A DNA stretch of 41,042 bases from a virus, in the IMG/VR virus record IMGVR_UViG_3300046524_000264, positions 1 to 41,042 of that record; one strand, given 5' to 3'. A model generated the notes under the pieces. That model was not told the DNA's origin. It was given only the letters and a program-made list of their open reading frames with translations, and ran no database searches. Positions 23,430-33,809 of the stretch are shown one piece after another; the first letter of the stretch is position 1, and each line of letters begins with the position of its first letter. A program made the position numbers and the translations under genes.

Positions 23430-23612
23430 ATGTCGGAAGCACCCTCTGTAAACCCTTTGATCAAAAGTGACCAAGCGTCTACTATCGACGCGATATATCA
23501 GTACCTTGCGTGGATGTGTCTTCAGAAAGACAGTGACCCGGAGGCGCATCCGGGCGAATGGCTGCACCTGGAAACGGTGCGGCTGGCCGTTGCTTCGCTC
23601 AAAAATGTGTAA
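23430..23612 (+). CDS. SOS-controlled 60-aa protein, candidate antirepressor
   Basis: No family is recognised. The protein is small and soluble, with a helix STIDAIYQYLAWMCLQK, an acidic loop (DSDPEAHPGEW) and a second helix HLETVRLAVASLKN. AGGAAGG precedes ATG 23430. It is the only gene with a LexA box in front. Phages whose repressor cannot self-cleave often use an SOS-induced small antirepressor (Tum of 186, AntC-like proteins of N15), and the CI-like repressor here lacks the usual catalytic Lys. The antirepressor role is inferred from these facts only; other SOS-linked roles are possible. Its stop codon lies in a 16-bp palindrome. Confidence 0.6.
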   Translation: MSEAPSVNPLIKSDQASTIDAIYQYLAWMCLQKDSDPEAHPGEWLHLETVRLAVASLKNV

Positions 23613-23621
23613 ATTTACACA
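23606..23621. promoter_or_regulatory. 16-bp palindrome related to repressor half-sites
   Basis: TGTGTAAATTTACACA is a perfect palindrome containing the half-sites GTGTAA and TTACAC seen in the repressor operators, but arranged back to back rather than with a 5-bp spacer. An overlapping imperfect TTACAC-AAAAT-GTGGAC is also present. It lies between the SOS-controlled gene and the rep control region, so it could link repressor to replication control. Confidence 0.45.
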
Positions 23622-23716
23622 AAATGTGGACGAGCAAAGGCGGGCGCGTTATTCTGAGCGCCGTCAGCCCCTTGGGGGCTAAGCAGTTAGAAGAATTAGA
23701 GAATTACGGCAGGCTT

Positions 23717-23790
23717 AAAAAAGAAAACCCCCGACCTTGGCGGGACGGGGGTTTCTGGTAATCAGCACAAATTGGCTTCAAACCGGGCAG
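23717..23790 (-). ncRNA. Candidate antisense RNA controlling repA (about 70-75 nt)
   Basis: On the minus strand a promoter-like pair, TTGCTT (23819-23824) and TAGACT (23796-23801) with 17-bp spacing, would start a transcript near 23789. It would end at a strong intrinsic terminator: a hairpin at 23728-23751 followed on this strand by TTTTCTTTTTT. No minus-strand gene exists here to need such a terminator. The size and the loop that pairs with UUGGCG in the repA leader resemble the Inc/CopA antisense RNAs of IncI, IncB and IncFII plasmids. No experiment supports it, and the pseudoknot partner CGCCAA was not found downstream. Confidence 0.5.
23725..23754 (-). terminator. Intrinsic terminator (minus) and target loop in repA leader (plus)
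   Basis: AAACCCCCG and CGGGGGTTT arms enclose a 12-nt loop containing TTGGCG on the plus strand. Read from the minus strand the stem is followed by a long T-rich run, making a good terminator; on the plus strand the T-run is short, so repA transcripts could pass. Confidence 0.7.
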
Positions 23791-23848
23791 GTAGAAGTCT
23801 ATTAGCTGATCACCGCATAAGCAAGCCCTAGCCATTAGGGATGTTTGG

Positions 23849-23962
23849 ATGATCGGCGAAGCCTCATTAGAAGGCCGCCCCGGCTTTGTGCGGGGGCGTA
23901 TAGATTTGCAGCCTCTGGCCCGCGTTTTGCGCTGGGCGCCGGCTGTCGGTGGTTCGCTATGA
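23849..23962 (+). CDS. RepA leader peptide, translationally coupled
   Basis: This 37-aa frame (MIGEASLEGRPGFVRGRIDL...GGSL) has AGGGA seven bases before its ATG and ends at a TGA that overlaps the repA ATG (ATGA at 23959-23962). Upstream leader peptides whose translation opens the rep start site (tap in IncFII, repY in IncI, repB in IncB) have just this arrangement: antisense target, leader, overlapping rep start. The sequence itself has no recognised family. If real, ribosomes finishing the leader would restart at repA, and the antisense RNA would act by blocking the leader. Confidence 0.6.
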   Translation: MIGEASLEGRPGFVRGRIDLQPLARVLRWAPAVGGSL

Positions 23963-24834
23963 AGCGCGTGACCGCCACCGTCCACCACCTGCCAAGCTCC
24001 CCGGCATCGGCGGCCTACAACGGCCTGTCGGTTGTCCAGACCAAAGCCCCGCCCAAACGCCTCAAGCGTGTCGATCGCTCGGCCCAGCCGCGCCGTCCGC
24101 GCGCCTTGACCGATGCCCAGCGCCGCACGTTCCTCGGTACCGCCGCAGAACGCGTCTGTGAAGAAGCCAAAAACCGCCAGTGCAAGTGGCTGCGCGACTT
24201 CGACACCTTCCAGTCCAGCGGCTACCGCACCAGCCAGAAGCGCTGGGACTCGCTGGCCGAGCTGATCGAGCCAATCCTTGCCCGCTTGGACATTGCCACG
24301 TTGGTGCTGGGCTACCTCGACAAAGCCGGAGAATTCCGCCTCAACCGTCAGCGCGGGCTGTCAGAAGACACCTCGCTGCAGGAGTGGACGGTTTCCCGTG
24401 TGATGGGTGCGCTGGAAGCGTCCAAGATGGTCTATCGCAAGATGCGCCGGATCTGCCACAACGGCCGTTACTGGATCACCCGCGTTACGATCAACGTCCG
24501 CCCGCGCTTCTTTATCCAGTTGGGGCTGGGCTACCAGCTCGCCGAAGCGCGCACGGAAAAGAAAGCCAAGCGCAACCAACTGTTGGCCACCTTTGGCAAG
24601 CAGCGCACAGACGCGCTGATCAAGAACGCGGCCGAGCGTGAAACCCGCAAGCAGTCACACGTCACGTCCCAGGCTAAGCACCGTCGTCAGCAGGCACAGG
24701 TTCAGGCTCAGGCCGCTGAGAATGCCGAGCGCGCCCGAGCGGCCGCATGGACGGCCTTCTGCGCCGATCCAGACACGCAGGCGCTGCCGGTGCCGCAGCG
24801 AATCAAGCTATTCAACCAGCGTTACCGCCCATAA
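23959..24834 (+). CDS. repA: Plasmid-type replication initiator RepA (IncFII/IncI-like)
   Basis: This 291-aa protein has the look of IncFII/IncI-type RepA initiators: a basic N-terminal region, a winged-helix-like core with DIATLVLGYLDK, LSEDTSLQEWTVSRVMGALE (likely recognition helix) and WITRVTINVRPRFFIQLGLG, then a Lys/Arg and Gln/Ala-rich helical tail (KHRRQQAQVQAQAAENAERA). Such proteins open an origin downstream of their own gene and recruit host polymerase. ATG 23959 is chosen for its overlap with the leader-peptide stop; an in-frame TTG at 23845 would bypass that control. A gene-free stretch with origin character follows. The family call is from pattern and context, not a search. Confidence 0.72.
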   Translation: MKRVTATVHHLPSSPASAAYNGLSVVQTKAPPKRLKRVDRSAQPRRPRALTDAQRRTFLGTAAERVCEEAKNRQCKWLRDFDTFQSSGYRTSQKRWDSLAELIEPILARLDIATLVLGYLDKAGEFRLNRQRGLSEDTSLQEWTVSRVMGALEASKMVYRKMRRICHNGRYWITRVTINVRPRFFIQLGLGYQLAEARTEKKAKRNQLLATFGKQRTDALIKNAAERETRKQSHVTSQAKHRRQQAQVQAQAAENAERARAAAWTAFCADPDTQALPVPQRIKLFNQRYRP

Positions 24835-25486
24835 CCCCCGCCACAACCAGCACCGCGTCAGGCGGTGCTTTCGTTCGTCCGCAACCTGAAAACGCCCCCA
24901 GCGGCGGCACAGGGCCTGCAAATCTCCCCCGCTTCCCTCGATCTTGACCCTCGATCCGTCCGCGCCGCGCAAAAAAGTTGCCGGCGCCGGCCGAGCAATG
25001 AGCCTTGGTTTTTAAAAGCTGCAAGTTTTCCTGTGTAGTGGTACCGCAAGGCATAAAGAAAGAGCCTTTAAAGCTCATGAACCATGCCAACGGTGCATGA
25101 CGGTCTGACGAAATAAATATGCCTGCCCACTTCGCGCCTCTAGGCGCGGGGCAAGGAACAGCTCGGCGTCAGTGATGCCGCCGTTCCGTCAGCGAGGCGC
25201 CTTCCAGTCGCTGTGAGCCGCACCTGGACCGAGCCCGACGCCATACCGCGTGGCGGCCCTTCGCTTCTTCACGCGCCGCCTTCGGCCAGTCGGTCGCGCA
25301 AGCGCTCCAGTCGACAATGAGGGGGGTTCGCTCACGTTCTTTGTCGACCTGCTGGCTCGACAGCGCTTGTCTGGGGCGATTGCTCAAACGATCCATGCCA
25401 TCACCGCACTGCGCGAGTGGTCGCGTGGGTGCGATCGCTGCGGCCGCCCTGCCGTGCTGCGCAGATCCGCGCGCCCAAATAAAAGA
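24835..25486 (+). other. Gene-free region after repA, candidate replication origin
   Basis: About 650 bp without a convincing gene; the short frames here lack ribosome sites and look like shadows. It begins with a hairpin (CACCGC / GCGGTG, 24850-24868), has GC-rich DNA with GCCGGCGCCGGC at 24981-24992, then an AT-rich patch at 25010-25120 (TTTTTAAAAGC, GCATAAAGAAAGAGCC, GAAATAAATATG), then more GC-rich DNA up to an array of TAACGAAT repeats. IncFII-type origins lie directly downstream of repA. No perfect DnaA box was seen. Confidence 0.4.
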
Positions 25487-33137: not shown

Positions 33138-33169
33138 TTAATTCGTTAATTCGTCAATTCGTTATTTGG
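33138..33169 (-). repeat. TAACGAAT-type repeat array 4 (between parA and the RHH gene)
   Basis: On the plus strand the units are TTAATTCG, TTAATTCG, TCAATTCG and TTATTTGG, that is CGAATTAA-type units on the minus strand. The array fills the space between the two partition genes and overlaps the parA stop. Confidence 0.85.
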
Positions 33170-33809
33170 ATTGTAGCGCAACAGCGCGGTTGATGATCGA
33201 GGAAATCAGCCGTTCGGCCTGAGCGCGCAGACCTTTGTGGGATACCTCAATCACGGACAAGCCAATGTCCATGGCGCGGCTGTAGCTGACTTTTTGCGGC
33301 AGGTGGCCATCGAGTACGTGGTAAGGCTTCTGGCCCAAATATTCGTGGGCCTCTTCCAGTTCGGCCACGCTGTCACCGACATGATTCAAAGCAAAGGCGA
33401 TGCGCTCAACCGGGATACCGTGTTTGTGGTGCAGGGCGTCGGCCAGCTTTACCGCTGGATCCAGATCATCCAGCGAGAGGCCGGTAGGGATGACCAGAAG
33501 ATCGCAAATCTCGGCCATGTCGGCAGTAATCTTGCTGGCGAACGCGGCGCCGTCGAGGATCATCACGTCATAGTTATCAGCTTGGGACATGGCGTGCGCG
33601 ACCGAGCCGAACTGCTCTACGGCGATTTGTGGTTGGTGCCCGCGCTGCAGGCGACGCTGCTGCCAAGTGGTGCTGGTCGATTGGTTGAGGTCGAAGTCGG
33701 CAATCTTTACCGACCAGTCGTTCTGCGCGAAACCAATAGCGGTGCCGCGTGCGTCGGTGGATTTGCCAGGGCCACCCTTCTGATTTGCGAAGCCTACGAT
33801 CAATGCCAC
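33162..33809 (-). CDS. parA: ParA partition ATPase
   Basis: This 215-aa ParA/MinD-type ATPase has the deviant Walker A FANQKGGPGKST (with the signature Lys in KGG), a switch with MILDGAAFASKITADMAEIC and LVIPTGLSLDDLDPAVKLAD. The small size without an N-terminal HTH marks type Ib (like ParF). It would form ATP-dependent patterns on the nucleoid that separate prophage copies at division. AAGGA lies eight bases before the start. Its promoter region contains repeat array 5, so expression is probably controlled by the RHH partner. Confidence 0.88.
   Translation of the reverse strand: MALIVGFANQKGGPGKSTDARGTAIGFAQNDWSVKIADFDLNQSTSTTWQQRRLQRGHQPQIAVEQFGSVAHAMSQADNYDVMILDGAAFASKITADMAEICDLLVIPTGLSLDDLDPAVKLADALHHKHGIPVERIAFALNHVGDSVAELEEAHEYLGQKPYHVLDGHLPQKVSYSRAMDIGLSVIEVSHKGLRAQAERLISSIINRAVALQSK

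Follow-up and report, generated by a model that had tools for sequence, protein, structure and literature searches.

RepJ, encoded by plasmid pPsv48C of Pseudomonas syringae pv. savastanoi, initiates replication and is essential for it (Bardaji et al. 2017; PMC5304414). In the REx-C control module of pPsv48C, stem-loops are accompanied by a leader gene coupled to rep and by a putative antisense RNA, and replication, leader coupling and incompatibility map to the RepJ control module (PMC5304414). Antisense control of copy number through a UUGGCG loop is known in enterobacterial resistance plasmids and has been suspected in the RepJ plasmids of Pseudomonas; Asano et al. 1998, as cited in PMC10724649, has the motif in its title. 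An earlier note on the DNA analysed here had proposed that an antisense RNA controls a repA gene through a loop containing this hexamer, known from plasmid copy control. We confirmed the precedent directly in two fetched plasmid sequences: ColIb-P9 has a hairpin with a UUGGCG loop 130 nt upstream of rep, and R100 has a hairpin with a UUUGGCG loop 145 nt upstream of repA.

The window, that is, the whole stretch of DNA that was analysed, comprises positions 1 to 41,042 of the IMG/VR virus record IMGVR_UViG_3300046524_000264. It carries a 121-bp direct terminal repeat, making it a circular-ended virus record, and encodes phage proteins (gpA terminase, head protease, major head, tape measure and tail proteins) together with an S24/CI-like repressor and a tyrosine integrase. 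A ParA-like partition protein is encoded at 33162..33809 on the minus strand; rep and ParA share a contig or record in 7/7 relatives tested, and the ParA-like protein provides supporting evidence for a plasmid state of the virus. The window thus unites structural genes with genes for plasmid replication and partition in one circular molecule, as expected of a phage-plasmid, and the Pseudomonas-type virus it represents appears to be maintained in its host as a plasmid. Evidence for the extrachromosomal state comes from one relative, pPAC1.3b (NZ_CP097559.1) of P. aeruginosa, a complete circular plasmid record of 42.8 kb. This close architectural relative shares with the window the phage structural genes, ParA, the S24 repressor, the integrase and the same control module, and differs in having another stem, a Rep annotated as hypothetical that is 52% identical over the aligned part, and an inserted Tn3-family transposase.

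A first scan identified seven close viral relatives, and a query with the alignment yielded 35 viral and 18 genome loci, which include contigs of 36-40 kb from Pseudomonas fluorescens, P. maioricensis and Azotobacter beijerinckii. The ends of the draft relatives overlap by 0 bp in two and by 44 bp in one, and circularity is not claimed for those. The replicon had no DNA or protein match in 50,697 phage records. The plasmid pBH6::BH9 (PMC6435834) was rejected as an example of the same kind, since in that case a Mu-like phage was captured by a plasmid.

The rep gene (23959..24834, plus strand) encodes a protein of 291 aa that we identified as a RepJ-type replication initiator by tblastn, by alignment and by an AlphaFold2 model. 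Its product had no Pfam, NCBIfam or meaningful PHROG match. By tblastn it is homologous to proteins of Pseudomonas and Azotobacter plasmids that are annotated as hypothetical, and the search against Pseudomonas plasmids including NC_019292 (pPsv48C) gave an E-value of 3e-14. The protein alignment contains 26 invariant columns. On this sequence evidence the protein is a distant homologue of RepJ. The AlphaFold2 model (pLDDT 83, pTM 0.66) has a winged-helix-like core, for which Foldseek returned only small winged-helix (MarR-like) fragments, none with E <= 0.001, and no confident PDB match. The window Rep gave no hit to NF040977, the IncI/IncL/M/IncFII RepA family; the Reps of its relatives matched that family weakly (best E 9.5e-5, 22 bits against a cut-off of 70). 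Homology between RepJ and IncFII RepA was rejected, because the weak matches were one-way and the reverse and profile comparisons were not significant. Hence the part of the earlier note that called the controlled gene repA gives way to a RepJ-type initiator, and its other part, an antisense RNA acting on the UUGGCG loop, stands as the best-supported reading. Some RepJ homologues (L039-L042, L053-L056, L060 and L061) are without a control module and are immediately preceded by a different gene; they are similar to clades III/IV in Bardaji et al. and may have been recruited to another role in prophage-like regions. Downstream of rep, a conserved non-coding block at 25040-25160 (0.82-0.93 identity) is a candidate for the origin or for an essential downstream structure as in RepJ replicons.

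The hairpin at the centre of the control region, SaL1 (23725..23754), lies 217 nt upstream of the initiator gene and would act in both RNAs: in the sense RNA as the target hairpin, and in the antisense RNA both as the terminator and as the hairpin that recognises the target. Its sequence, AAACCCCCGACC-UUGGCG-GGACGGGGGUUU, forms 11 pairs around an exact UUGGCG hexaloop at 23737..23742 on the plus strand, read as CGCCAA in the antisense RNA, just as had been noted for the rep leader. There are 51 TTGGCG hexamers in the window, and SaL1 is the only case in which one occupies the hexaloop of a hairpin exceeding 4 pairs. When the leader was simulated with a first-order Markov model, a hexaloop of this sequence arose with p=0.00045 on a stem of at least 8 pairs and with p=0.00005 on a stem of at least 11 pairs.

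Related hairpins have exchanged their stems while preserving the pairing. Among 17 distinct hairpins from phage and plasmid RepJ leaders, 8 of the 12 base pairs are altered on both sides, so the compensatory changes that the earlier note had proposed looking for in relatives do occur. The covariation score of the sense strand was 0.583, compared with 0.123 for shuffled alignments and at most 0.18 with the register slid, and that of the antisense strand was 0.652, compared with 0.195 when shuffled. Paired cells make up 98.0% of the alignment for the antisense strand and 93.1% for the sense strand. Because 11 cells are C.A in the sense and G.U in the antisense strand and only one is the reverse, the data point to the minus strand as the strand selected to fold; judged by eye the asymmetry corresponds to ~5 independent events against 1, which is not decisive alone.

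The UUGGCG loop is found on at least four stems: CCCCCGACC in the window clade, GCCCGGAG in pPAC1.3b, CCCCGAGG in L043, and GCCCCGG in several plasmid-type replicons. Other loop alleles include UUGCCG and its exact reverse complement CGGCAA, both on the one stem AAAACCCCAGGC...GCCUAGGGUUUU, and likewise the pair UUGCAG/CUGCAA on other stems. The loci with inverted loops are L033, L047, L048 and L052 (SaL1 loops), and also L049, L067 and L072. The antisense RNAs of two replicons with inverted loops would be mutually complementary, and such an inversion could, to judge by these alleles, switch incompatibility in one step. A UUGGCG hexaloop also occurs outside both Pseudomonas and the enterobacteria, in the hairpin CCCCCGACG-UUGGCG-CGUCGAGGG at 2001-2041 of the Dyella sp. 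plasmid p2, 5' of an ORF (2105-2980) with a weak match to RepA_IncFII_LM (E 1.1e-8). A hairpin in a Serpentinimonas plasmid, with another loop and no rep coupling, was treated as a chance terminator.

Downstream of SaL1 on the plus strand is an ORF for a leader peptide of 37 aa (MIGEASLEGRPGFVRGRIDLQPLARVLRWAPAVGGSL; 23849..23962), the TGA stop of which overlaps the ATG of rep (ATGA at 23959). Its translation start region (23837..23857, plus strand) contains an AGGG Shine-Dalgarno sequence and the AUG at 23849. The leader ORF, of 24-44 codons, ends as NTGA over the rep start in 24/24 phage-type loci, and the same overlap is seen in several plasmids; indels within the ORF are multiples of three among relatives. 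In the consensus fold the rep Shine-Dalgarno sequence and the first codons of rep are paired in one stem, which shows a few compensatory changes, as expected if rep depends on translation of the leader. Control probably runs through the leader peptide coupled to rep. Deletion of most of the leader gene in the 2017 study left replication without visible loss (PMC5304414), which warns against too central a role for the leader.

The IncI/IncL/M-type systems likewise have a UUGGCG loop and a coupled leader; in them, translation is activated only once the loop has formed a pseudoknot with a CGCCAA-like site just upstream of rep, a step that the antisense RNA prevents. Close to the Shine-Dalgarno sequence of rep, the window contains CGCCGG, which could pair with UUGGCG if two of the pairs are G-U; however, near relatives with an identical loop do not keep this site, and when loop alleles are compared, the sequence near rep fits its own loop no better than other loops. 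A pseudoknot has also been argued against for RepJ, the control and rep fragments being exchangeable (PMC5304414). We therefore regard activation by pseudoknot as improbable in this locus.

The predicted antisense promoter (23796..23824, minus strand) consists of a -35 TTGCTT at 23824-23819, a 17-nt spacer and a -10 TAGACT at 23801-23796, at the place where it had been described. Only 7/12 positions agree with consensus, and a generic sigma-70 scan with a cut-off of 9/12 missed the site. On single-sequence evidence this is a weak promoter, and its support is comparative: TTGCNN-17-TARACT is present in 24/24 phage-type loci, 59-65 nt from the loop, and most plasmid-type RepJ replicons have TTGCNN-17-CATAAT or CATACT at the corresponding place. 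The spacing stays at 17 nt over a spacer sequence that has diverged, which argues for a promoter and not for general conservation. With a start estimated 7 nt after the -10 (~23789) and an end at ~23717, the predicted antisense RNA (23717..23789, minus strand) is ~71 nt, in line with the 70-75 nt originally proposed, and 71-77 nt across the phage-type loci. These conserved signals define a putative small antisense RNA gene that is kept in all close relatives examined. The strong minus-only terminator of the earlier note proved effectively that, because SaL1 is followed by UUUUCUUUUUU on the minus strand and merely by UUUCUGG on the plus strand. A minus-strand ORF of 94 codons (23704-23988) spans the entire module without independent support, and so, as that note had held, the terminator is not explained by any minus-strand gene.

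These features bear on the proposal that SaL1 is a plain bidirectional terminator separating rep from the methyltransferase/ORF60 side, its promoter-like and loop motifs being due to chance. Such a terminator would account for the stable GC hairpin and its U-runs. It would not account for a loop hexamer conserved across replaced stems or for an antisense promoter at a fixed distance in 24 loci, the module always precedes a rep-coupled leader, and there is no minus-strand gene to terminate, which makes this explanation very unlikely. Loop, stem pairing, promoter and coupled leader are all conserved in the 24 phage-type loci. The outcome that the earlier note had given as refuting its proposal, loss of the hairpin among relatives sharing the initiator, was thus looked for and did not occur. 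Rfam gave no match at the gathering threshold. A relaxed search produced a sub-threshold match to rnk_pseudo, the Pseudomonas rnk leader, at 23717-23834 on the minus strand, over the antisense promoter and terminator (30.5 bits against a cut-off of 55, E 0.0014); identity with this family was rejected, and the match was judged to reflect a shared promoter-plus-terminator look.

Upstream of SaL1 is a candidate promoter for the rep mRNA, TGGACG-17-TATTCT (23627..23655, plus strand), proposed from sequence and conservation and weak with respect to consensus. Just upstream of it, at 23607..23620, lies the perfect 14-bp palindrome GTGTAAATTTACAC, the sole perfect copy in the window and identical in the eight members of the window clade that come first in the alignment; it is a possible operator of the rep promoter. 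A 60-codon ORF (23430..23612, plus strand) just upstream of the rep promoter shows conservation of 0.71-0.95 among relatives and had no family match, and pPAC1.3b has a similar ORF upstream. The 60-codon ORF sits where CopB does in R1/R100, a likeness of position only.

Comparison of the loci shows the predicted hairpin, its loop, the putative antisense promoter and the leader coupling to be under selection; transcription of the antisense RNA, repression and copy control are what we infer. It is highly probable that this module controls, by means of an antisense RNA, the copy number of a phage-plasmid whose replicon is of the RepJ type; the antisense RNA most likely limits the replication protein and so would set copy number, as in the well-known resistance plasmids. 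An antisense RNA of ~71 nt would be made constitutively from the minus strand, and its CGCCAA loop would kiss the UUGGCG loop in the leader of the rep mRNA. The rep mRNA, starting upstream, would have to be translated through the 37-codon leader, with Rep made by translational coupling. Pairing would spread along the hairpin and then into the 5' arm of a second stem-loop, SaL2 (23757..23814, plus strand), predicted by folding, of which the 5' arm GGUAAUCAGC lies within the antisense target and the 3' arm GCUGAUCACC outside it. With the 5' arm occupied, the 3' arm, which is complementary to the leader start region, would pair with the leader start GGAUGAUCGGC and mask it. As copies accumulate, antisense RNA would rise, Rep would fall and initiation would become less frequent, and phages sharing the same loop should be incompatible.

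The predicted antisense RNA falls ~60 nt short of the leader AUG in the window (53-64 nt across loci) and does not cover the leader start directly, so that it would most likely block leader translation by refolding. When the antisense target was blocked in silico, the freed 3' arm of SaL2 paired with the leader start. With the target occupied, opening the leader start cost a mean of +3.1 kcal/mol more over 24 loci, compared with -0.3 kcal/mol when the middle segment was shuffled and +0.4 kcal/mol when the target was shuffled; for the window the value is 2.0 kcal/mol, which 5% and 0% of the respective shuffles attain, and the effect is near zero in several relatives, namely L025, L029, L032, L034, L048 and L058. 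We put forward refolding as the main mode of repression as a supported proposal with a little less than an even chance of being right. Antisense-induced attenuation of transcription of the rep mRNA, of the pT181/pIP501 type, in place of translational control, would also fit an antisense-dependent refolding of the leader, yet the sense strand has nothing resembling an intrinsic terminator from SaL1 to rep, and conservation of a leader ORF coupled to rep speaks for translation, so we give it scant credence. The proposed combination of a refolding switch, unlike the direct occlusion or pseudoknot of IncFII and IncI, with a one-step change of incompatibility by inversion of UUGCCG to CGGCAA on the same stem, is tentative, and we consider it rather unlikely to hold as a whole.

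If the antisense control proposed here operates, it would be the standing one in a family of phage-plasmids from Pseudomonas and Azotobacter, in which rep carries only a hypothetical annotation. The module would offer a way to recognise such phages and would predict which of them are able to share a cell, and the antisense RNA presumed for the RepJ family becomes directly testable.

Among known systems, the extrachromosomal prophages of mycobacteriophages resemble the window as plasmid-maintained prophages with RepA or RNA-based replication (PMC7157519); at their origins RNA was proposed as the initiator (PMC7157519), whereas here the antisense RNA would control a protein initiator. R1/R100 of IncFII share an antisense RNA acting through a coupled leader ORF (CopA, tap, repA, CopB; PMC5717011), and differ in a two-stem CopA, compared with one hairpin here, and in their Rep. 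IncI-alpha ColIb-P9, IncB and IncL/M share the UUGGCG target loop, an antisense RNA of ~70 nt and the coupled leader. They differ in having a pseudoknot, for which there is no conserved partner here; the stem in the window is short, its Rep falls outside NF040977 by score, and its predicted antisense RNA falls well short of the leader start on the upstream side. The RepJ/REx-C replicon has a homologous initiator, a terminator-like stem-loop 1 with a putative antisense promoter downstream of it, a second stem-loop, a rep-coupled leader ORF and loop variation. As in REx-C, sequence and covariation in the window support stem-loop 1 as the terminator of a predicted antisense RNA with its promoter downstream, and the leader is coupled to rep by the NTGA overlap. 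The window system differs in occurring in phages, in a Rep only ~30% identical, and in its stem, antisense promoter -10 and leader lengths; the antisense RNA of REx-C is likewise putative. The 175-194 nt core of this replicon is not conserved in the window at the nucleotide level, as blastn of the control region returned no RepJ plasmid. The likeness is one of layout, loop and promoter only, and thus indicates a divergent relative of the RepJ replicon and not a copy of the described REx-C module. We place the locus with the RepJ/REx-C kind, of which it would be a divergent variant carried by phages, and predict that it works like the UUGGCG-loop antisense control of ColIb-P9, IncB and R100.
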